Below are positions 17,682-29,920 of a stretch of 64,000 nt of DNA, in pieces. Origin of the DNA: an uncultured Bacteroidia bacterium. GTDB taxonomy: Bacteria; Bacteroidota; Bacteroidia; Bacteroidales; UBA932. The first letter of the stretch is position 1, and every line of letters begins with the position of its first letter. The position numbers were made by a program, and so were the translations under genes. The notes beneath the pieces are model-generated. The model was not told the DNA's origin. It saw only the letters and a program-made list of their open reading frames with translations, and did not search any database. The stretch spans positions 244,035 through 308,034 of the forward strand of contig CACZCQ010000003.1 of the NCBI GenBank assembly GCA_902779765.1, read 5' to 3'.

Positions 17682-19091
17682 TTATTCGACCGTTATCGAG
17701 TTCAGGAGGGGGAGCTTGCCGTCTCCGATCAGCTTGATGATAAGTTCGCCGAACAAGGTGTTCTGCCAGGCGAACCACTCGCGTGTGAATCTTTCGGGAT
17801 TGTCCTTGTGGAATGACTCATGCATGAAGCCGGTGCCTGCATCTGTCTTCATCAAGGTTTCGATGCACCACTTGATTTCCGCATCATCTCTGGAGGTGAA
17901 GGCTTTCATCATGATGCTCATCGGCCAGACCATATCGAAGCCGATGTGCGGACCGCCGATTCCTTCCCCGGCCTTGCCCTTGAAGAAATAGGGATTGTCC
18001 TCGCTCCAGACAAAGCGCCTGGTATTCTGGTAGATACTGTCATCGGGAGTGACATCACCCAGGTAAGCCATGGCCAGCAGGCTGGGGACATTCGCGTCAT
18101 CCATCATAAGTTTGTTGCCGTATCCGTCGACTTCGTATGGGTAGATGGTTCCGTATTTCGGGTGTTCTATGGTGGCATAGGCCTGTAGCGCTTCCTGGAC
18201 TTCGTCCGCAAGGCCACGGCATTCAAGGGCAAGGTCTTTCTCTCCGTTGACCTTTTCCAGGATCTCCGCAGCCTTGCGCAGGGATGTGACCGCAAAGAAG
18301 TTGGACGGGATCAGGAACTCGTAGATGGTGGCGTCGTCGGACGGACGGAAAGCCGAGGCGATAAGCCCGACAGGCTTGACAGGATTGCCGAAACCGTGGT
18401 TCGATTTGGTGTCGGTCTGGGTCTCGGTCTCTCTCTGGAAGCGGTACGGACCGGGTCCTTCCTTGCGTTGCTGGGCCTTGAATGTGGTCAGGATATTCCT
18501 TATGGCATTGATCCAGGTCTCACCGAATACGGAAGTATCTCCAGTGGTCTTCCAATACTGGTAAGCTAGACGGATAGGGTAGCAATCCGAATCGATCTCC
18601 CATTTGCGCTCGTGCAGGTTGGGATTCATCTTCGTGCGGTCTGTCTGCCATCCGGTTCCGGTCGGCCCGTCATTGAAAGCATTGGCGTACGGGTCGATGC
18701 AGATCAGGCTGAACTGGCAGTTGATCACACCCGCGAGCATGTTCCTGAGATGCCGGTCTTGATTGGCCAGCTGTACATATGGCCAGACCTGGGCTCCGGA
18801 GTCCCTGAGCCACATAGCGTGGATGTCTCCGGTGTAGACGAAAGTCCTCCAGTTGCCGTTTTCATCCTTGCCGAAATGGACGGTCGTATCGAGGGTGTTG
18901 GGGTAGCAGTTGGAAAACATCCAGGCCAGCTTGGCATTCGTCAGCTGAGCACTCACTTCCTTGATCTTCGCTTCCACTGCTTCGCTGCGGAAGAGCCTTT
19001 CTCCGGGAGCGGGACGTTTGGACTCGTAGGACTGGGCTCCGGCCGTATACATGCAGGCGAAGAGAGCCAGGGTAATCAGTATTCTTTTCAT
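17682..19091 (-). CDS. GH125 exo-alpha-1,6-mannosidase
   Basis: Secreted or periplasmic glycoside hydrolase, 469 aa including a signal peptide (MKRILITLALFACMYTAGAQ). GH125 enzymes are inverting, metal-independent alpha-mannosidases with an (alpha/alpha)6 barrel. Signature blocks seen are VYTGDIHAMWLRDSGAQVWPY (about 89-109), EIDSDCYPIRLAYQYW, and GGPHIGFDMVWPMS near the C-terminus. The ATG at 19091 was chosen because it begins the signal peptide; the upstream extension crosses the divergent promoter. Probably trims alpha-mannose from N-glycans or yeast mannan. No SusC/SusD pair is present in the window. Confidence 0.93.
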   Translation of the reverse strand: MKRILITLALFACMYTAGAQSYESKRPAPGERLFRSEAVEAKIKEVSAQLTNAKLAWMFSNCYPNTLDTTVHFGKDENGNWRTFVYTGDIHAMWLRDSGAQVWPYVQLANQDRHLRNMLAGVINCQFSLICIDPYANAFNDGPTGTGWQTDRTKMNPNLHERKWEIDSDCYPIRLAYQYWKTTGDTSVFGETWINAIRNILTTFKAQQRKEGPGPYRFQRETETQTDTKSNHGFGNPVKPVGLIASAFRPSDDATIYEFLIPSNFFAVTSLRKAAEILEKVNGEKDLALECRGLADEVQEALQAYATIEHPKYGTIYPYEVDGYGNKLMMDDANVPSLLAMAYLGDVTPDDSIYQNTRRFVWSEDNPYFFKGKAGEGIGGPHIGFDMVWPMSIMMKAFTSRDDAEIKWCIETLMKTDAGTGFMHESFHKDNPERFTREWFAWQNTLFGELIIKLIGDGKLPLLNSITVE

Positions 19092-19118
19092 TATAGAGCA
19101 GTTATTTTCGGTCTTTAA

Positions 19119-19126
19119 CAAATATA
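19119..19126 (-). promoter_or_regulatory. -7 element TATATTTG for the GH125 gene
   Basis: Reverse-strand TAnnTTTG match, 28 bp upstream of the GH125 ATG in the divergent spacer between two glycoside hydrolase genes. Confidence 0.6.
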
Positions 19127-19165
19127 GCGCTTTTTGCAGATATTCTTTTTCTCTAGCATTATGAT

Positions 19166-19173
19166 TATATTTG
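19166..19173 (+). promoter_or_regulatory. -7 element TATATTTG for the GH2 gene
   Basis: Forward TAnnTTTG match, 36 bp before the GH2 ATG. Together with the 19119-19126 element it gives two outward-facing promoters in the same 118-bp spacer. Confidence 0.6.
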
Positions 19174-19209
19174 TATTTACGGTTTGAAACAAACAACACT
19201 TCACAGATA

Positions 19210-21090
19210 ATGAAAGCAAGATTCATCGTTATGGCTGCCGCCGCCCTCCTGGTCGCGGGCAGTATCAATGCACAGCAATGGAGCCCTGCAGGAGACAGGA
19301 TCAGGACACCCTGGGCCGAAGAGGTCTCGCCGACGAACTCCCATCCCGAATATCCCCGTCCCCAGATGGTCCGTTCCGAATGGCAGTCTCTCAATGGTCT
19401 CTGGGATTACGCCATTACCCCGAAGTCGGAGCCTAGACCCGCCAAATTCGACGGGAAGATCCTGGTTCCTTTCGCTGTCGAGTCATCCCTTTCCGGTGTT
19501 GGCAGGAAGGTGACTCCGGACGACGCCCTTTGGTACAAGACCACTTTCACGGTCCCCTCTGCTTGGAAAGGCAGGAGACTTATGCTCAATTTTGACGCCG
19601 TCGATTGGAAGACTGTGGTTTACGTCAATGACATACAGATCGGTTCCCACACAGGTGGCTATACTCATTTCTCATTTGATGTGACTCCTTATCTTAAGAA
19701 CGGGGCCAACTCCCTTGTCCTGAAAGTCGAGGATGCAACAGACAACGATTTCCAGCCTCGTGGGAAGCAGGTTTCCAAGCCCTCCGGAATCTGGTACACC
19801 GCCGTCTCTGGTATCTGGCAGAGCGTATGGATGGAGCCTGTTGCCCCCGCCCATGTGACCGATTACAATGTGGTCTCAAGCATAAAGGAGAAAGCCATCA
19901 ATGTCACTGTTGACGCCGAAGGTGTTCAGGAAGGTGATGTGATCAAGGTCTTCCTCCTCGACGGAGGTATTGGATATTCCACTGAGACCGCTAACGCCGC
20001 GAAGACCGCCACTGACGGATTGTATGCTGTACTCGCATCCGGGATGACGGTCCCAGGCGGTACGGTGACGCTCAATGTCAGGAATCCAAAACTCTGGTCT
20101 CCTGATTCTCCTTATCTCTATGGCCTTGATATCCAGATTCTCAGGAATGGCAAGGTCATAGACAAGGTCGCTTCTTATACAGCCATGCGTGAGGTCGGAG
20201 CATACAGGAAGAATGGCAACACCAAGCTCATGGGGCTTAACGGAGAGGGCTTGTTCCAGCTTGGACCTCTTGACCAGGGCTGGTGGCCGGACGGACTTTA
20301 TACCGCACCCACTGATGAAGCTCTCAGATTCGACATCCAGAAGACAAAGGACTTCGGATTCAACATGATCCGCAAGCACATCAAGGTCGAGCCTGACCGT
20401 TGGTTCTATTACTGCGACCAGATTGGAATCATAGTATGGCAGGACATGCCTTCTTTCGGCGGCAGCAAGAAGTGGGGCATGTACTATTACGGAGAGGGCG
20501 AGGATTTCCCCGCCACACCCGAGGCCAAGGCCAATTACTACAAAGAGTGGACGGAGATCATCAATCAGGTCAAGAAGTTCCAGTGCATCGCAGTTTGGGT
20601 GCCTTTTAACGAGGCTTGGAGCCAATTTGACACCAAGGATGTCGTCGCCTACACCAAAAAGCTTGATCCAACCAGACTTGTCAACCAGTCTTCAGGTGGT
20701 AACTGGGAAGAAGGTGTCGGTGACATCCTCGACAACCACCATTATCCCTACCCCGCCTTTAGGATGTGGGACAAGAACATGATCAATGTCCTGGGTGAAT
20801 ATGGTGGAATCGGACTGCCTGTCGAAGGACATCTCTGGCAGGCGGACAAGAACTGGGGATATGTCCAGTACAAGAATGGGGACGAGGTCCTGGCCGAGTA
20901 CGCTTCATTCGCCGAGCAGCTCAAGCAGCTCATCAAGCAGGGTTGCAGCGCCGCGGTCTATACCCAGACGACCGATGTGGAAATCGAGATTAACGGTCTC
21001 ATGACTTATGACCGCAAGGTCATCAAGATGGACGAGAAGAAACTCCGCGCCGTCAACGAAGGCATAATCAAGTCAATGCCAGTCAAATAA
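19210..21090 (+). CDS. GH2 family glycoside hydrolase (beta-galactosidase/glucuronidase-like)
   Basis: Secreted or periplasmic retaining glycosidase, 626 aa with signal peptide (AAALLVAGSINAQ). Domain order is sugar-binding jelly roll (about 40-200), Ig-like (about 205-310) and TIM barrel (about 315-620). The general acid/base is Glu468 in PFNEAW, and the nucleophile is Glu530 in VLGEYGG. Specificity cannot be fixed: I do not see a clear NxK motif typical of beta-glucuronidases. Start at the ATG that opens the signal peptide. It heads a run with a sugar-acid kinase, a LarA homologue, gnd and an SDR, which makes an acidic or oxidised sugar substrate plausible. Confidence 0.88.
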   Translation: MKARFIVMAAAALLVAGSINAQQWSPAGDRIRTPWAEEVSPTNSHPEYPRPQMVRSEWQSLNGLWDYAITPKSEPRPAKFDGKILVPFAVESSLSGVGRKVTPDDALWYKTTFTVPSAWKGRRLMLNFDAVDWKTVVYVNDIQIGSHTGGYTHFSFDVTPYLKNGANSLVLKVEDATDNDFQPRGKQVSKPSGIWYTAVSGIWQSVWMEPVAPAHVTDYNVVSSIKEKAINVTVDAEGVQEGDVIKVFLLDGGIGYSTETANAAKTATDGLYAVLASGMTVPGGTVTLNVRNPKLWSPDSPYLYGLDIQILRNGKVIDKVASYTAMREVGAYRKNGNTKLMGLNGEGLFQLGPLDQGWWPDGLYTAPTDEALRFDIQKTKDFGFNMIRKHIKVEPDRWFYYCDQIGIIVWQDMPSFGGSKKWGMYYYGEGEDFPATPEAKANYYKEWTEIINQVKKFQCIAVWVPFNEAWSQFDTKDVVAYTKKLDPTRLVNQSSGGNWEEGVGDILDNHHYPYPAFRMWDKNMINVLGEYGGIGLPVEGHLWQADKNWGYVQYKNGDEVLAEYASFAEQLKQLIKQGCSAAVYTQTTDVEIEINGLMTYDRKVIKMDEKKLRAVNEGIIKSMPVK

Positions 21091-21101: not shown

Positions 21102-22172
21102 ATGGATATAAGGAATAAACGCTATGCCCTGCTGGTTCCTACCAGCATGGGTTTGCGTGTCACGCCGGAGAACGGGCAGCCTGTCCAGTCGAGTGATGTC
21201 CTGCATCTGCAGGCCACCAGTGCCGAGACAAATGTCGCTAGCATCTCCTCTTATCTCGGCCTTCCGGTCAAGGTGCTGACCACCTTCGTGGAGGGCAGTC
21301 CCTTCGCCGCTTTCATCAAGTCCAACCTCCGCTCCCGCGGGATGGACTTCGAGGGACCTGAAGTGCCTCAGGGAGGCCCCTGGGGGTACAGGCACCAGAT
21401 AAACGTGGCCGACAGCGGCTACGGTTCACGCGGCCCGAGGGTATGGAACGACCGCGCCGGCGAAGTGGGCAGAACCTTGAATGTCAAGGGTTTCGACCTC
21501 GACAGGATATTCGGGAAAGAAGGGGTGGAGATCGTCCATCTCTCCGGACTGATCGCGGCGCTCAGCCCCGATACCAGCCGCTTCTGCCTCGAGATTGCAA
21601 GGAAGGCTAAGGAATATGGGACCAGGATAAGTTTCGACCTCAACTACAGGGCGTCTTTCTGGGCCGGAAGGGAGGAGGAACTCCGTGCCGTTTTCAGTGA
21701 GATATGTTCCCTTGCCGACATCCTTATCGGTAACGAGGAAGATTTCCAGTTATGCCTGGGGATTCCCGGACCAGAGGCAGGTGGCAAGGACATCTCCGCC
21801 AAGATCGAAGGGTTCAAGGAGATGATCCGCCGTGTAAGGAAGGAATACCCGGCCGCTCAGGTATTCGCCACCACCCTTCGCCAGGTCAACAATACCAACA
21901 GCCACAACTGGGGCGCGATCATGCTTGAAGGAGACACCTGGCATGTCGTCGAGCCTCGTGAGATACATGTGCTGGACAGGATCGGAGGCGGCGACGGTTT
22001 CGTCGGAGGCCTGCTTTACGCGATACTCAAGGGTTGGGAACCCGAAAAATGGATCCAGTTCGGATGGGCCTGCGGTGCACTTGCCACGACCTTCCTTACC
22101 GACTATGCACAGCCTGCCGATGAAGACCAGGTCTGGAGCATCTGGAAAGGCAATGCGAGGGTAAAACGCTAG
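21102..22172 (+). CDS. PfkB-family sugar kinase, 2-dehydro-3-deoxygluconokinase-like
   Basis: Cytoplasmic ribokinase-fold kinase, 356 aa. Blocks are TSAETNVASISSYLGLPV near the N-terminus, the central ISFDLNYRASFW, a GNEEDFQ motif, and the C-terminal anion-hole/catalytic-base block DRIGGGDGFVGGLLYAIL. The last replaces the common GAGD with GGGD but keeps the Asp. The sequence resembles KDG kinases, which phosphorylate 2-keto-3-deoxygluconate. The gene begins 11 bp after GH2 and ends 3 bp before the LarA-like gene, supporting a role in uronate or aldonate use. Fructokinase-type activity is the main alternative. Confidence 0.85.
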   Translation: MDIRNKRYALLVPTSMGLRVTPENGQPVQSSDVLHLQATSAETNVASISSYLGLPVKVLTTFVEGSPFAAFIKSNLRSRGMDFEGPEVPQGGPWGYRHQINVADSGYGSRGPRVWNDRAGEVGRTLNVKGFDLDRIFGKEGVEIVHLSGLIAALSPDTSRFCLEIARKAKEYGTRISFDLNYRASFWAGREEELRAVFSEICSLADILIGNEEDFQLCLGIPGPEAGGKDISAKIEGFKEMIRRVRKEYPAAQVFATTLRQVNNTNSHNWGAIMLEGDTWHVVEPREIHVLDRIGGGDGFVGGLLYAILKGWEPEKWIQFGWACGALATTFLTDYAQPADEDQVWSIWKGNARVKR

Positions 22173-22175
22173 GCC

Positions 22176-23453
22176 ATGCTCTATTTCGCAAGGGGATCGG
22201 AGACCGACATCATCTCGGCTGAAGAAACAAGGGCCATCCTGAAGGATGTCTTCGACAGGATGGGCCCCAGGAAGAGGGTGCTGGCCATTCCTCCGGACTA
22301 CACCAGGCTCAATTCCTTTGCCGGCCCCGTCACGGAGATGGTGAACGATTATTTCGGGGAGCGACTTACCGATGTGATGCCGGCCCTTGGGACGCATACA
22401 CCCATGACTGAGGAACAGATCTCATCCATGTTCGGCTCCGTCCCTCCCGCCAAATTCCGTGTCCACGACTGGCGCAACGACGTCGTCACGGTGGGGGAGG
22501 TCCCGGCCTCGTTCGTCAGCGAGGTATCGGAAGGCCGTGTGAGCTATCCCATGCCTGCCCAGGTGAACAGGCTCCTTCTCGATCCCTCGTTCGACCTCAT
22601 CCTTTCGATAGGACAGGTAGTACCTCACGAGGTGATCGGTATGGCCAACTACACCAAGAACATATTCGTAGGTGTCGGGGGATCCGAAGGGATTAACAAA
22701 AGCCATTTCCTCGGAGCTTCCTACGGCATGGAGAGGATAATGGGGCGGGCGAAGACCCCGGTAAGGGACGTCCTTGAATATTCCAGGACCCATTTCATCC
22801 CCGACCTTCCGATAGTGTACATACTTACCGTCCGTGCCAAGGATGAGACCTCAGGCGAACTGGTGACAAGGGGGTTTTTCATAGGCGACGATTTCGAATG
22901 TTTCGAGAAGGCATCGAAGCTTTCGCTCGAGACCAATTTCATAATGGTCGAGAAGGAAATACGCAAATGCGTCGTATGGCTCGACCCTGCTGAGTTCAAG
23001 AGCACGTGGCTTGGTAACAAGGCCATCTACCGCACCCGCATGGCCCTGGCAGACGGAGCGGAGCTCGTGGTGCTCGCACCGGCTCTGAAGGAATTCGGTG
23101 AAGATCCAGCCATAGACACCCTCATACGCAAATATGGTTACAAGGGCACTCCGCACACCCTGGAAGCGACGGAGGCCAACAAGGATCTCCAGGACAACCT
23201 CGGGGCGTCCGCCCATCTCATCCACGGGTCTTCCGAAGGCAGGTTCAGGATAACCTATTGTCCGGGTCCCGGGGTGAGCAGGGAAGAGATTGAAAGTGTC
23301 GGATTCGGCTACGGTGACCTCGATGAGGCCATGCGCCGCTATCCGGCCGATATAATGAAAGACGGATGGAACATCATGCCCGACGGCGAGGAGGTATATT
23401 ACATCTCCAATCCCGCCCTCGGCCTCTGGGCCCATCCTTCAAGATTTGTTTAA
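22176..23453 (+). CDS. LarA-family nickel-pincer racemase/epimerase homologue (DUF2088)
   Basis: 425 aa, cytoplasmic. The residues that define lactate racemase LarA are present with the same spacing: Asp41/Arg44 (DYTR; Asp72/Arg75 in L. plantarum LarA), His74 in GTHTPMTEE (His108), His151 (His174), Lys161 exactly 10 residues later (Lys184, the covalent cofactor site) and His177 exactly 16 later (His200, nickel ligand). The enzyme should therefore carry the nickel-pincer nucleotide cofactor. LarA relatives racemise or epimerise lactate, malate or sugar acids at C2. The neighbours (KDG-kinase-like, gnd, SDR) favour an aldonate substrate. No LarB, LarC or LarE is in the window. Confidence 0.85.
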   Translation: MLYFARGSETDIISAEETRAILKDVFDRMGPRKRVLAIPPDYTRLNSFAGPVTEMVNDYFGERLTDVMPALGTHTPMTEEQISSMFGSVPPAKFRVHDWRNDVVTVGEVPASFVSEVSEGRVSYPMPAQVNRLLLDPSFDLILSIGQVVPHEVIGMANYTKNIFVGVGGSEGINKSHFLGASYGMERIMGRAKTPVRDVLEYSRTHFIPDLPIVYILTVRAKDETSGELVTRGFFIGDDFECFEKASKLSLETNFIMVEKEIRKCVVWLDPAEFKSTWLGNKAIYRTRMALADGAELVVLAPALKEFGEDPAIDTLIRKYGYKGTPHTLEATEANKDLQDNLGASAHLIHGSSEGRFRITYCPGPGVSREEIESVGFGYGDLDEAMRRYPADIMKDGWNIMPDGEEVYYISNPALGLWAHPSRFV

Positions 23454-23460
23454 TGGTTAT

Positions 23461-23587
23461 GTCAAGGCACCTATCCTCCAAGAACCACTGCCACCCTCGG
23501 CACGTTAAGAGGGGGGACCGGAGCGGAACGTAGTGAAGCGAGCGGTGGGGCCGCGAAGCGGCGGTTCGGGAGGAGAGGTGCCTTGAC
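23461..23587. repeat. 127-bp element with 19-bp terminal inverted repeats
   Basis: Left end GTCAAGGCACCTATCCTCC (23461-23479) and the inverted right end (23569-23587) match at 18 of 19 positions. The interior is GC-rich (mostly G and C in blocks such as GAAGCGAGCGG and GCGAAGCGGCGG) and partly self-complementary, so the whole unit could fold into a long imperfect hairpin. It fills nearly the entire spacer between the LarA-like gene and gnd. No open frame and no evident target-site duplication. It looks MITE- or REP-like. Confidence 0.75.
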
Positions 23588-23603
23588 AAAAAAGAATAAA
23601 AGA

Positions 23604-25061
23604 ATGAAAGCAGTATCAGACATCGGACTTGTGGGTCTCGCCGTCATGGGCGAGAACCTGGCTTTGAACATGGAGAGCAAGGGCTTCCATGTGAGCGTCT
23701 TCAATCGTACGGTCGAGAAAGTGGACCGTTTCATGGAGGGCCGCGGCAAAGGCCTCAACTTCTACGGAGCGCACTCCCTGGAGGACTTCGTCGCATCCCT
23801 GAAGAGCCCCAGGAAAGTATTCCTCATGGTCAAGGCCGGAAAGCCCGTGGACGAGTTCATCGACAGGCTCATCCCTCTCCTGGACAAGGGAGACATAATC
23901 ATTGACGGTGGCAACACCCATTTCCCGGACACCGCCCGCAGGACCGAATATGTTGAAAGCAAGGGTCTCCTGTACATCGGCACAGGTGTTTCCGGAGGTG
24001 AGGAAGGAGCACTCAAGGGCCCTTCCATGATGCCCGGCGGCTCCCTGGCGGCATGGCCTTTCGTCAAACCAATATTCCAGGGCATAAGCGCCAAGGTCGC
24101 TGACGGCACGCCTTGCTGCGACTGGGTCGGACAGGGAGGTGCAGGCCATTTCGTGAAGATGGTCCACAACGGTATCGAATACGGTGACATCCAGCTCATA
24201 TGCGAGTGCTACCAGATAATGAAGGACATCCTCGGAATGACCAACGAGGAGATGCATGAAACCTTCGCCGAATGGAACAGGGGAGACCTCGACAGCTACC
24301 TCATCGAAATAACCCGCGACATCCTGGCGAAGAAGGACGGGGAAGGAAAGTATGTCCTCGACTATATCCTTGACACTGCAGGCCAGAAGGGTACCGGCAA
24401 ATGGACCGCTATCTCGGCCCTTGACCTGGGCGAGCCCCTGACCTTGATAAGCGAATCCGTCTATGCCCGCTGCCTGTCCGCCTTGAAGGATGAAAGGGTG
24501 AAGGCTTCCGGGATCCTGGAAGGTCCTAAGCCGGTCAGGTTCACCGGTGACAGGAAGGCTTTCCTGGAAGACTTGAGGAGGGCCCTGTTCGCATCCAAGG
24601 TCGTCTCATACGCCCAGGGTTATTCCCTTATGAGGGCAGCTGCAAAGGAATATGGCTGGGACCTCAATTACGGCGGAATCGCCCTTCTCTGGAGAGGAGG
24701 ATGCATCATCCGCAGCGTATTCCTCGGAAAGATCAAGGATGCGTTCGACAAGGATCCAAACCTTGCAAATATCCTTCTCGATCCCTATTTCAAGGATAAG
24801 CTGTCCGAGGCCCAGACCGGCTGGAGGAATGTCATCGCCCAGGCCGTCGTGAACGGAGTTCCCGCCCCTTGCATGACCGCCGCCCTTGAGTATTATGACG
24901 GCTACCGCACCGAAAGGCTTCCCGCCAACCTGCTGCAGGCCCAGAGGGACTATTTCGGTGCCCATACTTATGAAAGGACTGACCGTCCCCGCGGGGAGTT
25001 CTTCCACACCAACTGGACCGGCCATGGCGGCGATACCGTCTCCGGGACATACACCGTATAA
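23604..25061 (+). CDS. gnd: 6-phosphogluconate dehydrogenase (decarboxylating)
   Basis: NADP- or NAD-dependent oxidative decarboxylation of 6-phosphogluconate to ribulose 5-phosphate and CO2, in the cytoplasm. 485 aa from the ATG at 23604; a TTG seven codons upstream lies inside the inverted-repeat element and was rejected. Rossmann fingerprint GLAVMGENLALNMESKG, then substrate block IDGGNTHFPDTARR, VSGGEEGALKGPS, and the catalytic Lys/His region GAGHFVKMVHNGIEYGD. C-terminal RTDRPRGEFFHTNW is the usual end. No zwf or pgl adjoins, so 6-phosphogluconate may come from gluconate here. Confidence 0.96.
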   Translation: MKAVSDIGLVGLAVMGENLALNMESKGFHVSVFNRTVEKVDRFMEGRGKGLNFYGAHSLEDFVASLKSPRKVFLMVKAGKPVDEFIDRLIPLLDKGDIIIDGGNTHFPDTARRTEYVESKGLLYIGTGVSGGEEGALKGPSMMPGGSLAAWPFVKPIFQGISAKVADGTPCCDWVGQGGAGHFVKMVHNGIEYGDIQLICECYQIMKDILGMTNEEMHETFAEWNRGDLDSYLIEITRDILAKKDGEGKYVLDYILDTAGQKGTGKWTAISALDLGEPLTLISESVYARCLSALKDERVKASGILEGPKPVRFTGDRKAFLEDLRRALFASKVVSYAQGYSLMRAAAKEYGWDLNYGGIALLWRGGCIIRSVFLGKIKDAFDKDPNLANILLDPYFKDKLSEAQTGWRNVIAQAVVNGVPAPCMTAALEYYDGYRTERLPANLLQAQRDYFGAHTYERTDRPRGEFFHTNWTGHGGDTVSGTYTV

Positions 25062-25078
25062 CAATAAACGATCCTGAT

Positions 25079-25918
25079 ATGAAGTATTCATTTGATGACC
25101 TGAAAGGTCGTAACTGCGTTATTACCGGCGGTTTCGGTGTGATCGGAACCGCCTTGACCAGGGGACTTGCAGAGGCCGGTGTCAACCTGGCAGTGATCAG
25201 CCGTTCAGCTGACAATCCTGCAAAGGGCGAAGCTATCGCCGCCGAATTCGGGGTGAAGTGCATAGGCATCTCCGCCAGTACCCTGGACCAGGCCGCCCTC
25301 GAGGCCGCCCTCGAACTGATCCACGAGAAACTCGGGAAGGTCGACATCCTCATCAACTGCGCCGGAGGAAACTCTCCCAAGGCAACCTGCAAGGCCGAGC
25401 AGATGAATCCAGGCGATGACCTGGGAGACACTTTCTACGGCCTTGACCTGAGTGGTTTCGACCAGGTGTTCGACCTTAATTTCAAGGGTACCCTCCTGGC
25501 GACCAAGGTATTCACCCGGGACATGGTGGAGGCAGGGAAAGGCAATGTCCTGAATATCTCCTCGATGAATTCGATCCGTCCCCTGACCAAGATCCCGGCT
25601 TATTCGGCCGCCAAGGGAGCGATCAACAATTTCACACAGTGGTATGCTGTCCATGTGGCCCAGATGGGCATCCGCTGCAATGCCATAGCTCCCGGCTTCT
25701 TCCTGACCGACCAGAACCGCTTCCTGCTTACTGATGAGAAGACCGGAGCGCTGAAGCCCCGCGGAGAGAAGATCATCGCCAACACTCCGACACACAAGTT
25801 CGGCGAGCCGGAGGACCTGGTGGGCACGATGCTCTATCTCCTGAGCGACATGTCCTCGTTCGTCACGGGAATAATAATCCCCGTCGACGGCGGCTACAGC
25901 GCATTCGGCGGGGTTTAA
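25079..25918 (+). CDS. SDR-family oxidoreductase, fructuronate reductase-like
   Basis: 279-aa short-chain dehydrogenase. Dinucleotide-binding GGFGVIGTALTRGLAEAG (a variant of TGxxxGxG), NCAGGNSP, the catalytic Ser in NISSMNS and the YSAAKGA Tyr-xxx-Lys pair are present, and C-terminal VDGGYSAFGGV ends it. SDR proteins of this type in Bacteroidota act as D-mannonate oxidoreductase (fructuronate reductase) in hexuronate catabolism. That call fits the neighbouring KDG-kinase-like gene, but uxuA and uxaC are not in the window and gluconate 5-dehydrogenase is a close alternative. Located 17 bp after gnd; converges with the GH29 gene. Confidence 0.8.
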   Translation: MKYSFDDLKGRNCVITGGFGVIGTALTRGLAEAGVNLAVISRSADNPAKGEAIAAEFGVKCIGISASTLDQAALEAALELIHEKLGKVDILINCAGGNSPKATCKAEQMNPGDDLGDTFYGLDLSGFDQVFDLNFKGTLLATKVFTRDMVEAGKGNVLNISSMNSIRPLTKIPAYSAAKGAINNFTQWYAVHVAQMGIRCNAIAPGFFLTDQNRFLLTDEKTGALKPRGEKIIANTPTHKFGEPEDLVGTMLYLLSDMSSFVTGIIIPVDGGYSAFGGV

Positions 25919-25938: not shown

Positions 25939-27267
25939 CTACTTCAAGGTGACCTTGATTACATAGTCAGAGTCGGCGGGCAGCGCACCGGTCATGGTGA
26001 TGAAGAGCTTCTCGCCGACTTTTTTGGTGGCTACCGGTGAACCGTCGGCAAGGGCGGTGACGCTCTTCACCCTGGCCCTCTTGGCAACGGGAATCTCAAC
26101 CACGGCTCCGGGGTCCTTGAACAGGTGGAGGTAGAATGTCTTGCCTCCTTCGACCGGGGCGGTGGAAACTCCCCACTCCTGTTCCTGGACAGGGCCCGGG
26201 CCGCATCCTTTGATGGATTCGCCGTTCACCCTCATCCACTCTCCCATACCTTTTAGACGCTCGATCGCCTTTTCGGGAAGTTCGCCGTCAGCCTGCGGGC
26301 CTATGTTGAGCAGAAGGTTGCAGTTCATCGAAACGCACTGGGCGAGGAGCCTCACCAGGGTTCCTACCGACTTGTAATCCTGGTCGGCAACCGCATATCC
26401 CCACGACTTGTTCATGGTCTGGCACATCTCGACAGGGATGATCGCGCTGACTTCCTGGCCCTCCGAGAATCCCGCGGTATTCCTTCCTGGGAGGTCCCTT
26501 TCGAAGGTCTGGTAGTCCTCTCCCTCGATAGGGGCGATATGGTGGTTGTTGCAGATCAGGCAGTCAGGATTGATCGAGTGGATATACTCATAGAACTCGG
26601 GCATCCTCCAGTCGAAGGGGACTGCATCCTTCCTGTGGTCCCAGTAACCGTCGAACCACAGGGCGCGGGTGTGGTACTGTGTGAGCAATTCCTTCACCTG
26701 GGCCTTCATGAAATTGAAGTAGTGGTTGTAGTCCTGGCTGTCTCCCTTGCGTCCGGAGAATCTCCCGGATTCACCGACGGGGAAGTCCTCGCGGTCCCAG
26801 TCCAGGATGGAATAGTAGAACTGGAGCTTGATGCCTTCCTTGAAGCAGGCCTCGTCCAGTTCCTTGATCACGTCGCGGCCGAAAGGCGTAGCCTTCACGA
26901 TGTTGTAGTCGGAAGCCTTCGTGTCGAACATCGAGAAACCGTCGTGATGGCGTGAGGTGATGGTCACGTACCCCGCTCCGGCATCCTTGAAAGCCTTTAC
27001 CCATTCGCCGGCATCATACCGTGCAGGGTAGAAACCCCTTGCGGCCTTGGCATACTCGTCCTTGTTGAGCTTGCCGGTGTTGAGGTACCATTCTCCCTGT
27101 GCGTAGGAGGCATAGATCCCCCAGTGGAGGAATATTCCGAAGCGCTCGTTGACGAAATCCTTGCGAGCCTGGAGATTACCCTCCGAGGGGGTATATCCCT
27201 GGGCCCCTGCGGAAACGGTCATGACCAGCGCGGCCATGAGCCCGACTATGTATCTTATCGCTTTCAT
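25939..27267 (-). CDS. GH29 alpha-L-fucosidase
   Basis: Exported retaining alpha-L-fucosidase, 442 aa with signal peptide (ending TVSAGAQ). TIM-barrel blocks are ERFGIFLHWGIYASY, YVTITSRHHDGFSMFDTK and the nucleophile motif LWFDGYW with Asp206. A beta-sandwich C-terminal domain is short. Some GH29 proteins lack an alignable acid/base, and I cannot assign it here. It is 11 bp downstream of the GH78 gene and probably shares its promoter. Released fucose would feed fucP/fucI about 23 kb away in this window. Confidence 0.94.
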   Translation of the reverse strand: MKAIRYIVGLMAALVMTVSAGAQGYTPSEGNLQARKDFVNERFGIFLHWGIYASYAQGEWYLNTGKLNKDEYAKAARGFYPARYDAGEWVKAFKDAGAGYVTITSRHHDGFSMFDTKASDYNIVKATPFGRDVIKELDEACFKEGIKLQFYYSILDWDREDFPVGESGRFSGRKGDSQDYNHYFNFMKAQVKELLTQYHTRALWFDGYWDHRKDAVPFDWRMPEFYEYIHSINPDCLICNNHHIAPIEGEDYQTFERDLPGRNTAGFSEGQEVSAIIPVEMCQTMNKSWGYAVADQDYKSVGTLVRLLAQCVSMNCNLLLNIGPQADGELPEKAIERLKGMGEWMRVNGESIKGCGPGPVQEQEWGVSTAPVEGGKTFYLHLFKDPGAVVEIPVAKRARVKSVTALADGSPVATKKVGEKLFITMTGALPADSDYVIKVTLK

Positions 27268-27278
27268 ATCCGGTACTT

Positions 27279-29870
27279 TTATTTTTCGACTTTGTATGTT
27301 CCGGCCTCGTAGTCCTTGGAGTCGGTCTCGCCGGGGAGGGTTACGGTTGCGGTGGCGCCTTCAGGAACGGTGAATTCCCAGATCCACTTGTCGCCTTCAT
27401 ACTTCCAGGAACTCTTGATGACTCCGGCGGCGGACTTGTATTCGGCATCCAGGTTGCCGAGCCTCTTGTCCGGTACGGGCTTCATGATTATGTGCTTGAA
27501 ACCGGGGTTGGCGGGATCTGCGCAGATACCTGCGGCGGTCTCCCAAATCCAGGCGCATACTGCACCGTAGGCGTAGTGGTTGAAGCTGTTCATACCGCTG
27601 GGGCCCATACCTGATTCGAGGGTGTAGCTGTTCCAGCGCTCCCAGATCGTGGTGGCGCCGTTGTCGACTGAATAGAGCCAGCTCGGATTCTTGCGCTGGA
27701 AGAGCAGTTCGTAGGCGATGTCGACCATACCGTTGTCGGTCAGGGTCTGCATCAGGATGGAGGTGCCGAGGAAACCGGTCTGGAGGCAGTTGCCGTGGTC
27801 GGCGAAATTCTGCCTGAGGCGTGCGATGGTAGCCTCCCTCGCCTTGCCTTCCACGATATTGTTCTTGAGCGCGAACAGGGCAGGGGTCTGCATCGTGTTG
27901 AGGATTTCGCACTTGAACGTTCCGTCAGGCTTGAGGAACTGTTTCTTCATGTATTCCCTGGCATCCTCGGCCATTGCACGGTACCTGGCAGCATCCTTCC
28001 CGGTAGCGGCAGCCATGTCGGCCATCATTCCGGCATCAAGGGCCCAGTATGAAGCGCTCAGGTAGTTCCAGTACACGATCGCCTCAGGACGGCGGACGTT
28101 CTTGCCGGACTTGTCTTTCATATTGATCCCGCCTCCGCAGCTCTCCAGGGGCTCATAGCTCAGCCAGTCCGCCCACTGGTAGTTGCCGTTCTCCGCGGCG
28201 TGTGTGACGTGGTCGTATTTCGTGTCGTTGACATAGTTCATGAAGAGATCCATGGATTCCCAGTTCTCCTTGACTATCTCATTGTCTCCGAATTGCTTCC
28301 AGATGGTCCAGGGTACTATGATGCCGGCATCGGCCCAGCCGAGACGCATCTTTTCGTTGCCGTACTGAGCGGTGGGGGCGACTCCGGGATATCCTCCGAC
28401 CTCGCTCTGGGAATCCCTCATGTCACGGGTCCATTTGTGGAAGAATCTGTCGGTGTTGGCGAAGAAGGTTCCGGTCTCTGTGAATACCTGGGTGTCGGCC
28501 GTCCATCCGAGGCGCTCGTTGCGCTGAGGGCAGTCGGTAGGGACTGAAAGGTAGTTGGAACGCTGGCCCCAGACGGTATTGGAGATGAGCTTGTTGATGA
28601 GCTCGTTGCCGGTGGTTATGGTGCCGGTCTCGAGGTTCTCGGCGATGGATGTCACGGGCACTGACTTGACCGACTGGATGGTCACCTCGTCGGTAGCTGT
28701 GATGGACACCAGGCGGTAGCCGAAGAAGGTGTGGCGGGGACGGTAATCAACGAACCCCTTGGAATCCGCGAAGGTGTACATGACCCTGATGAAGTCGTCA
28801 TCCACGCGCAGGTTCCTTCTGTGGCAGCTGCCCTCGGGACCGTCCATGCCGCGGCTCTTGGCACCGTTGCCGTCGTTCAGCAGCTCGGAAGGCATGCAGG
28901 TAAGGACGGTGCCGCCTTTGGCCTTGAATACGAATGAGGGGACTGCGGCTGCGTTCTGGCCGAAGTCGATGACGAGGGTCTCGCCGGGCTTGACCGTCAT
29001 GGGCTCGCCGGCAGCGAACTCCTTCTTTATGATAACTTTACCGTAGTCTTCATCGCTCTCTCCTTCGACTCCTTCCCATACATAGGCCTTGACGGGGTCT
29101 AGGGCGATGTCGTCGCGCATGTAGATCTCGGCTCCGGCGGAGGGGAGGATCTCACCGTTGAATTCCTTGTTCTCCTCTGGCGTGGAGAGTTTCTCGGGGC
29201 TCTCGAAACCCTGGGGTACCCTGGCGTCGTATTCCTCGCCGTCGAAGATCGATGCAAGTTGTACGGGGCCCGCGATACCGGCCTTCCAGTTGTCCAGGTC
29301 GGTGCCGTAAAGCTTCTTGCTGCCGTCGGCATAGGTCAGCTCGAGTACGCTCCTGAATGCGCACTTCTTGCCGGTCATTCCGTCGTTTCCGGAAGTGACG
29401 ATCTTGTCGGCCCACCATCCGGGAGTAACCTGGGCTGAAAGGATATTCTCAGCGCCGGATTTCGTCTTGAAGGCGTCGGTGATGTCGTATGTGAAGGAGC
29501 GCTTGGTCTTTGCAAAATGTGTGAATCCCGGCTTCAGGACCTCGGTTCCGACGGGCTTGCCGTTGATGAAGAGCTCGAAGACACCAAGTCCGGTGGCCAT
29601 CCATTTTGCGGAAGTCACTTGCTGTTCGTTCTTTACTGTTGAAAGGAACCAGTTTGCGCCCCTGGCAGCATGGTCATTCAGCTCGCGGTCGGCTTTCGTG
29701 ACCACTGGAGCATCGACGGCCGAAATCCAAATGGAACTGTCCCATGCCGAATCATCGAGTGCAGGAATCCTGCTGCCAACCTGGGAAACCGTCGGCGAGC
29801 CGCATGAATATGCCAGGACGGCAACGGCGGCCAACGCCATGCTCATGAAAAGGAATCTTCTTGCTTTCAT
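27279..29870 (-). CDS. GH78 alpha-L-rhamnosidase lipoprotein
   Basis: 863 aa from the ATG at 29870, which opens a lipoprotein signal (LAYSC, Cys23); a further in-frame ATG ten codons upstream has no such logic. N-terminal beta-sandwich domains (about 30-400) precede the (alpha/alpha)6 catalytic barrel. GH78 hallmarks are DCPQRNERLGWTADTQ (the Glu of NERLGW is in the acid region) and TTIWERWNSYTLESG followed by SFNHYAYGAVCAWIWE, with a C-terminal beta domain. It removes terminal rhamnose from glycans or plant material. First gene of a GH78-GH29 pair. Confidence 0.94.
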   Translation of the reverse strand: MKARRFLFMSMALAAVAVLAYSCGSPTVSQVGSRIPALDDSAWDSSIWISAVDAPVVTKADRELNDHAARGANWFLSTVKNEQQVTSAKWMATGLGVFELFINGKPVGTEVLKPGFTHFAKTKRSFTYDITDAFKTKSGAENILSAQVTPGWWADKIVTSGNDGMTGKKCAFRSVLELTYADGSKKLYGTDLDNWKAGIAGPVQLASIFDGEEYDARVPQGFESPEKLSTPEENKEFNGEILPSAGAEIYMRDDIALDPVKAYVWEGVEGESDEDYGKVIIKKEFAAGEPMTVKPGETLVIDFGQNAAAVPSFVFKAKGGTVLTCMPSELLNDGNGAKSRGMDGPEGSCHRRNLRVDDDFIRVMYTFADSKGFVDYRPRHTFFGYRLVSITATDEVTIQSVKSVPVTSIAENLETGTITTGNELINKLISNTVWGQRSNYLSVPTDCPQRNERLGWTADTQVFTETGTFFANTDRFFHKWTRDMRDSQSEVGGYPGVAPTAQYGNEKMRLGWADAGIIVPWTIWKQFGDNEIVKENWESMDLFMNYVNDTKYDHVTHAAENGNYQWADWLSYEPLESCGGGINMKDKSGKNVRRPEAIVYWNYLSASYWALDAGMMADMAAATGKDAARYRAMAEDAREYMKKQFLKPDGTFKCEILNTMQTPALFALKNNIVEGKAREATIARLRQNFADHGNCLQTGFLGTSILMQTLTDNGMVDIAYELLFQRKNPSWLYSVDNGATTIWERWNSYTLESGMGPSGMNSFNHYAYGAVCAWIWETAAGICADPANPGFKHIIMKPVPDKRLGNLDAEYKSAAGVIKSSWKYEGDKWIWEFTVPEGATATVTLPGETDSKDYEAGTYKVEK

Positions 29871-29899
29871 ATTGATATTGATTATTGTGTGCCTATTCA

Positions 29900-29920
29900 T
29901 ACAAAAATAACTATTTTTGC
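29900..29920. promoter_or_regulatory. Back-to-back divergent -7 elements, copy 1
   Basis: Core CAAAAATAACTATTTTTG is a perfect inverted repeat around AC/the centre base pair: TATTTTTG on the minus strand (29902-29909, toward GH78) and on the plus strand (29912-29919, toward the YgjP-like gene), both matching TAnnTTTG. The same 21 bp occur at 38473-38493. Two polymerases could not use both at once. Confidence 0.65.

Follow-up and report, generated by a model that had tools for sequence, protein, structure and literature searches.

The question raised by the locus described here is how a conserved operon can be kept around an enzyme whose known cofactor genes were not found in the host genome. 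The locus lies in a 64,000-nucleotide stretch (the window; positions 244,035 to 308,034 of contig CACZCQ010000003.1, assembly GCA_902779765.1) of an uncultured Bacteroidia bacterium. Its central gene, at 22176..23453 on the + strand, encodes a protein of LarA homologue group 18 (LarAH18), predicted from family models, residues and an AlphaFold2 model to be a hexonate (mannonate/gluconate-type) 2-epimerase dependent on the nickel-pincer nucleotide (NPN). The finding is of interest because the host apparently lacks the means to produce the cofactor on which the operon seems to depend. The reading that we consider probable is that LarAH18 is an NPN-type hexonate C2 epimerase, with D-mannonate to D-gluconate as the likeliest conversion, in a route from uronates to the pentose phosphate pathway, and that its cofactor comes from outside or from an unknown maker.

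The assembly holding the window (the host genome, G000) comprised 2.48 Mb in 31 contigs and was 97.75% complete. It was compared with an order sample of 149 genomes and with 199 genomes of the window's family. LarAH18 was held by 22 order-level and 21 family-level genomes, G000 being counted in both, which gives 42 distinct holders. The best 80 of 401 LarAH18-relative stretches (417 stretches matched; 71–86% identity) served as close relatives and were not typed one by one for family or for the cofactor genes larB, larC and larE (larBCE); their record titles mostly named Bacteroidales or Bacteroidia, and the named sources were mostly ruminant stomachs, with some horse faeces. Residues were counted over 102 LarAH18 sequences, from the 22 order-level holders and the 80 close relatives. 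A mis-binned contig was considered unlikely, as the window carries the housekeeping genes for NusA, IF-2 and ProRS and lies at the end of a contig of 308,034 bases.

The LarAH18 open reading frame (ORF) was intact from ATG to stop and encoded 425 amino acids. The protein scored 639 bits (2e-192, curated cut-off 500) against the NCBIfam model NF052594, "nickel-dependent putative hexonate epimerase", and 36.6 bits against Pfam Lar_N (cut-off 23.3). An earlier note, made from the DNA letters, had described a LarA-type ORF with six diagnostic residues, and all of them were found in their places: D41, R44, H74, H151, K161 (+10) and H177 (+16), matching D72, R75, H108, H174, K184 and H200 of LarA by spacing. 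These six and 93 further columns were invariant in 102/102 sequences, as was K282, which stands at the spacing of LarA K298; K305 was rejected as the counterpart of K298, since that position varies and K282 fits. In the accessible text of PMC11770544, GntE enzymes usually carry E, V, A and H at the positions of LarA F175, F176, W358 and T359. With these positions mapped by our own spacing and a 4nar profile alignment, LarAH18 carried the same signature, as E152, V153, A346 and H347 were present in 102, 102, 101 and 102 of the 102 sequences, respectively. Confidence in the epimerase reading was raised slightly because this signature fits. W278, the helix-11 W typical of groups 18–20, was invariant as well (102/102).

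The nearest solved structure was 4nar from T. maritima (phmmer 2.9e-34), which we infer to be GntE2 from a literature mention of a D-gluconate epimerase apoprotein structure. An AlphaFold2 model of LarAH18, built from 28 sequences, reached a predicted local distance difference test (pLDDT) score of 90.7, and Foldseek placed 4nar as the best match of this predicted fold (3.7e-26, 24% identity, template modelling (TM) score 0.79). All 19 matches with E < 0.001 were 4nar or malate racemase, lactate racemase or LarA-like chains. Among them was the LarA lactate racemase of L. plantarum (5huq and 6c1w, at 1.6e-11 and 5.6e-12), which shares fold and catalytic residues with LarAH18 and differs at the substrate site, with F, F, W, E/Q in the accessible descriptions against E, V, A, H. 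A chance match or a pseudogene was rejected by the family score, the invariant residues and the substitution ratios given below. Membership of LarAH18 in the LarA superfamily, group 18, was confirmed at the level of sequence; as an enzyme-family assignment, it is ordinary.

LarB, LarE and LarC are the makers of NPN (accessible text of Urdiain-Arraiza 2024, PMC11770544, which also adds LarAH15). The earlier note had expected their genes elsewhere in the genome and had named their absence as evidence against the enzyme; when the host genome was searched, none of the three was over cut-off, and a complete NPN system (a LarA homologue with LarB, LarC and LarE in one genome) was thus not found in it. 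Across the order sample larBCE was all-or-none, with LarB, LarC and LarE over cut-off in the same 16 of 149 genomes. LarAH18 was over cut-off in 22 genomes, 13 with larBCE and nine with none of it (G000, G022, G058, G072, G074, G096, G108, G119 and G136), and larBCE was present in three of the 127 non-holders (G016, G042 and G132). Because of this association (13/22 versus 3/127, Fisher p 1.4e-10, over rows that are not independent), LarAH18 was tied to NPN. The 13 include G143, whose partial larC was matched as two fragments of 74.9 and 35.7 bits; when this genome is excluded, the proportion is 12/21.

Within the window's family, LarAH18 was found in 21 genomes, LarC in five and both in none. 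The five genomes with LarC and without LarAH18 (G196, G206, G224, G227 and G239) were 71–83% complete; among the 97 family genomes at least 90% complete, LarAH18 was found in 10 and LarC in none. This family-level absence is one of LarC, with LarB and LarE checked in G000, G008 and G126. An assembly gap behind the missing genes is unlikely, since the nine holders were 92–100% complete, all three genes were gone each time and larBCE was all-or-none. A control genome, that of T. maritima, was matched by the LarC and Lar_N models. Other strong Lar_N proteins (>100 bits) occurred in five order-level genomes, always together with larBCE, so that, within the sample, the orphan state appears as a trait of LarAH18; other LarA families were not seen as orphans among these strong proteins. 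G028, G073 and G079 had Lar_N matches below the cut-off and no larBCE. As a separate observation, G016 and G132 carried larBCE without any Lar_N match, like published NPN makers without LarA; that genomes with larBCE and without larA exist is stated in the accessible part of Nevarez 2024 (PMC11796402).

No alignment column separated the 13 larBCE-positive from the nine larBCE-negative holders at 85%. The ratio of nonsynonymous to synonymous substitution rates (dN/dS) between the window gene and nine relatives was 0.04–0.08 for eight of them, dS being saturated for the ninth, and the median over 66 pairs of relatives was 0.067; these ratios are rough at the high dS observed (1.6–3.0), and the relatives were not typed for larBCE. 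On a tree of 22 rows, the larBCE label needed five changes, two of them forced by well-supported branches, and it was somewhat clustered (24 of 500 shuffles scored as low for the rows with larBCE). Such a pattern agrees with larBCE having been lost several times, or with LarAH18 having moved repeatedly into genomes that lack it, the enzyme staying functional. Judged by sequence, the orphan LarAH18 enzymes look functional. The absence of larBCE was therefore not taken as refuting the enzyme: its residues, the purifying selection seen among close relatives and the co-occurrence of LarAH18 with larBCE in related genomes point to a working enzyme of the NPN type.

Where the cofactor comes from can be answered in several ways. 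Because larB, larC and larE were not found, it is proposed that NPN or a precursor would come from outside or from an unknown maker, outside NPN being the simplest. A broader version, put forward tentatively as a possibility, is that NPN is a shared vitamin: many gut and rumen Bacteroidales would have lost larBCE in repeated, separate events while LarAH18 stayed under strong selection because they import NPN or a late precursor, which would be made by other community members and taken up through an unknown importer, and the PfkB-family kinase of the operon, acting on gluconate or mannonate, would complete a uronate route free of UxuA and reliant on the borrowed cofactor. That the holders make NPN by non-orthologous or very divergent enzymes is unlikely. 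LarB and LarE belong to large superfamilies, and the host genome does hold a LarB-like match of 45.6 bits (cut-off 175) and a LarE-like one of 33 bits (cut-off 150); however, matches of any strength were near-universal (LarB in 141/149 and LarE in 147/149), as expected of PurE-like and PP-loop proteins, and LarC gave no match at E 0.001 in the host genome. It is improbable that LarAH18 does without NPN in larBCE-less genomes, using another cofactor or having lost its redox function. Such a change would agree with larB, larC and larE lying below cut-off in G000 and eight other order-level holders and with the lack of larC in all 21 family holders, but the checked catalytic and NPN-site residues were the same with and without larBCE, the larBCE label was scattered on the tree and dN/dS was low in close relatives.

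The reaction proposed for LarAH18 draws on its neighbours. The gene was found in a conserved set, new here, with genes for a PfkB-family kinase, Gnd and a short-chain dehydrogenase/reductase (SDR) of the mannonate-oxidoreductase kind, often with UxaC or UxaE. In the window, the kinase gene (21102..22172, +; PF00294) lies 3 bp upstream of LarAH18 and encodes a predicted hexonate (gluconate or mannonate) 6-kinase. Downstream follow gnd, for a decarboxylating NADP-dependent 6-phosphogluconate dehydrogenase (23604..25061, +; TIGR00873, 767 bits; the ATG start is our choice, with an alternative TTG at 23583), and, after 17 bp, a gene for an SDR of the D-mannonate oxidoreductase (fructuronate reductase) type (25079..25918, +; NF006132, 342 bits, cut-off 281). 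The neighbours named in the earlier note, a kinase like those of 2-keto-3-deoxygluconate (KDG), gnd and a fructuronate-reductase-like SDR, were thus present. Its statement that no lactate gene is nearby held for the 29 ORFs of the window that were searched against Pfam, a scan that was not exhaustive (the window lists 53 ORFs of at least 250 amino acids, overlapping frames included). The transcript likely begins with a GH2 glycoside hydrolase gene (19171..21090, +; Pfam GH2 domains) ending 11 bp before the kinase gene; its true start may be downstream of the listed TTG, and it stood upstream of PfkB in 15/80 close relatives.

Of the close relatives with enough flanking sequence, 70/79 had PfkB at most 200 bp upstream of LarAH18 and 58/64 had gnd at most 1.7 kb downstream of it. 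Order-level neighbourhoods (L-labels) were read in 20 of the 21 other holders, G136 being left out, and some of them stop at contig edges. They contained the SDR in 19 cases (two at 40–43% identity), gnd in 18, UxaC in 14, UxaE in 13, a LacI-type regulator in 14, pdxB in 14 and the operon PfkB in at least 10; KDPG aldolase (for 2-keto-3-deoxy-6-phosphogluconate, KDPG) was present in six, a separate gene of the KDG-kinase type in four and uxuA in three. These gene names rest on one scanned representative per gene type, and antisense frames masked some genes when ORFs were picked (the PfkB of L127, for example, is visible by tblastn).

In the proposed route, UxaC would convert glucuronate to fructuronate, which the SDR would reduce to D-mannonate. 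LarAH18 would epimerise D-mannonate to D-gluconate by the proton-coupled hydride transfer of LarA-type enzymes, in which the C2 hydride would pass to the nickel-pincer cofactor and come back on the opposite face while H74 and H151 act as the acid/base pair. PfkB would phosphorylate gluconate at C6, and Gnd would oxidise the resulting 6-phosphogluconate to ribulose-5-phosphate, CO2 and NADPH. The route would replace the UxuA/KdgK/KDPG-aldolase branch. Sequence shows the family, the residues, the predicted fold, the gene order and which genes were not found in the assembly; the substrate, the direction, whether kinase or epimerase acts first, the kinase specificity and the cofactor supply are inferred. 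Of the two uronate genes whose search had been suggested, the host genome gave one UxaC, located elsewhere than the operon and adjoining a transporter judged from its sequence to be like those of the major facilitator superfamily, and no UxuA. A profile search of the same genome found no Zwf, UxuA or KDPG-aldolase family protein, UxaE, ManD-type mannonate dehydratases and other KDG aldolases not having been searched. With no Zwf found, gnd is left without a visible Zwf-derived supply; with neither UxuA nor KDPG aldolase found, the classical exits of fructuronate and altronate via KDPG would be closed, unless proteins from other families take over these steps. The operon looks like the uronate exit of its own genome. 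Both UxuA and KDPG aldolase were below cut-off in 12 of the 42 holders, 10 of which keep UxaC.

The kinase was examined against KDG-kinase models and reached the cut-off of none (95, 43.5 and 33.5 bits against cut-offs of 440, 400 and 400), so that the label given to it in the earlier note stands as a likeness and not as membership. On an aldolase/kinase fusion model (cut-off 700) it scored 170 bits, whereas the separate kinase beside the KDPG aldolase in L114 scored 511. When 79 operon kinases were aligned with nine proteins of the KDG-kinase type, two of which look like another PfkB subgroup, Gly-Gly at positions 39–40 and Tyr at 101 and 116 in the latter were replaced by Thr-Ser, Asn and Asn in 79/79 operon kinases (T39-S40, N101 and N116 in the window; position 39 was Thr in 78 and Ser in one). 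These Gly and Tyr positions are presumably those that contact KDG in KDG kinases. Because of the differences at these columns, the sequence suggests a hexonate (gluconate or mannonate) 6-kinase and not a typical KDG kinase. A literature search found no paper joining gluconokinase, PfkB and mannonate.

Two other arrangements of the same genes were weighed. The main rival, which we hold to be doubtful, places the kinase first, PfkB acting as a mannonate 6-kinase and LarAH18 as a 6-phosphomannonate 2-epimerase that yields 6-phosphogluconate directly. The gene order in the window (kinase, epimerase, gnd) agrees with it, as do R100, R286, R288 and R356, which were invariant in 102/102 sequences and had no clear counterparts when 4nar was aligned; these arginines were, however, not placed in the pocket, LarAH18 carries the GntE signature, and the characterised GntE1, GntE2 and LarAH15 use the unphosphorylated acid in the accessible literature. 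The other arrangement, in which the operon serves KDG/Entner-Doudoroff metabolism with PfkB as the KDG kinase, had been part of the earlier proposal. Although the best PDB match of PfkB was 2afb (9.5e-31), named 2-keto-3-deoxygluconate kinase, this is quite improbable: the two Gly and two Tyr positions were replaced in every operon kinase, a separate KDG-kinase-type gene, 27–32% identical to the operon kinase, was present in 4/20 neighbourhoods, and neither UxuA nor KDPG aldolase was found in the host genome. The part of the proposal that survives, in sequence terms, is a C2 epimerase of a hexonate tied to uronate metabolism and 6-phosphogluconate.

Neither the substrate class nor the route is new, both having been published already; the earlier note had supposed the link to be new. 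NF052594 bears the same predicted reaction, and in the accessible text of Desguin 2020 (PMC7583248) groups 18, 19 and 20 share a signature of loop EV/S, helix-11 W and helix-14 A/V, groups 19 and 20 convert D-mannonate to D-gluconate by epimerisation, and a hexonate is the substrate hypothesised for group 18. Scoring over cut-off, the window protein belongs to group 18; what sets it apart is that a search of its genome found no larBCE and that the operon kinase is of the PfkB type. GntE2 of Thermotoga maritima (LarAH20, D-gluconate 2-epimerase; taken as 4nar) has the closest structure, the shared GntE signature and, likewise, a route proposed to lead from uronate to gluconate and to involve a kinase and Gnd. 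For Thermotoga, conversion of uronate through mannonate and gluconate to 6-phosphogluconate was proposed by Rodionova 2012, as reported in the accessible text of Valk 2020 (PMC6978723). GntE2 belongs to another group, and the T. maritima route is described with the gluconate kinase gntK, whereas the window has PfkB. In the hybrid galacturonate pathway of Lactobacillus suebicus (Valk 2020, PMC6978723), the upper isomerase pathway is likewise joined to 6-phosphogluconate, but phosphorylation of mannonate precedes its epimerisation there, and no genes have been assigned. For a LarA homologue without larBCE, no statement was found in the accessible text of PMC11796402 and PMC12611868 or in literature listings, subscription papers lying mostly outside this search; an earlier remark may exist.

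Several observations weigh against the proposed epimerase and route, beginning with the missing larBCE, which leaves the use of NPN unsupported by gene content, the rough dN/dS values and the families left out of the host-genome search. Mutual exclusion of LarAH18 and UxuA was not found, as UxuA was over cut-off in 8/22 order-level and 8/21 family-level holders. Zwf was present in 14/22 order-level holders and KDPG aldolase in 29/42 holders, and UxaC was not found in 5/42. In the accessible text of Desguin 2020 (PMC7583248), no group 18 protein is among the 13 assayed homologues of Table 1, and context is said to be not always useful for finding activity; the accessible text of Urdiain-Arraiza 2024 (PMC11770544) names no group 18 enzyme as assayed.

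Further features were observed around the gene set. A pdxB-type (4-phosphoerythronate dehydrogenase) gene, absent from the window, was located directly 3' of LarAH18 and before gnd in 45/64 close relatives, and was seen, for example, at L108:11142-12413 and L057:11298-12461, one representative being over the PdxB cut-off. 4-Phosphoerythronate inhibits Gnd, and PdxB may protect the route. 4-Phosphoerythronate is a toxic metabolite linked to pentose-phosphate carbon sources (accessible text of PMC12445079). In three loci without a visible PfkB, a pyrophosphate (PPi)-phosphofructokinase-like gene and a gene of the haloacid dehalogenase (HAD) family occupied the slot before LarAH18, between it and the SDR (L116:7177-9401, L128:10745-13082 and L132:10734-12975), where they may stand in for the missing kinase. 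At L118:6830-7664, a second copy of gnd, split into two pieces, directly adjoined an intact one.

Between LarAH18 and gnd in the window lies a GC-rich hairpin element (23457..23591, no strand assigned) with 23-nucleotide inverted ends, the arms being 91% complementary and the fold reaching -73.2 kcal/mol (z -7.7). An Rfam search gave no match up to E 1, and its 16-base core was not found in the 80 close relatives at up to two mismatches. The hairpin may be a small mobile element, similar to miniature inverted-repeat transposable elements (MITE-like), or an RNA switch. The operon flanks (17682-19394 and 25939-29900) carry genes for a GH125 mannosidase, an alpha-L-fucosidase family protein and an alpha-L-rhamnosidase, which suggests a region for the degradation of plant or host glycans.

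The operon offers a candidate PfkB hexonate kinase, as well as candidate genes for a conversion of mannonate to 6-phosphogluconate of the type left without assigned genes in L. suebicus (PMC6978723). A conserved LarA homologue kept under selection in lineages that lack larBCE would mean that a cofactor is shared within gut communities, that NPN is synthesised in an unknown way, or that a LarA enzyme works free of NPN.
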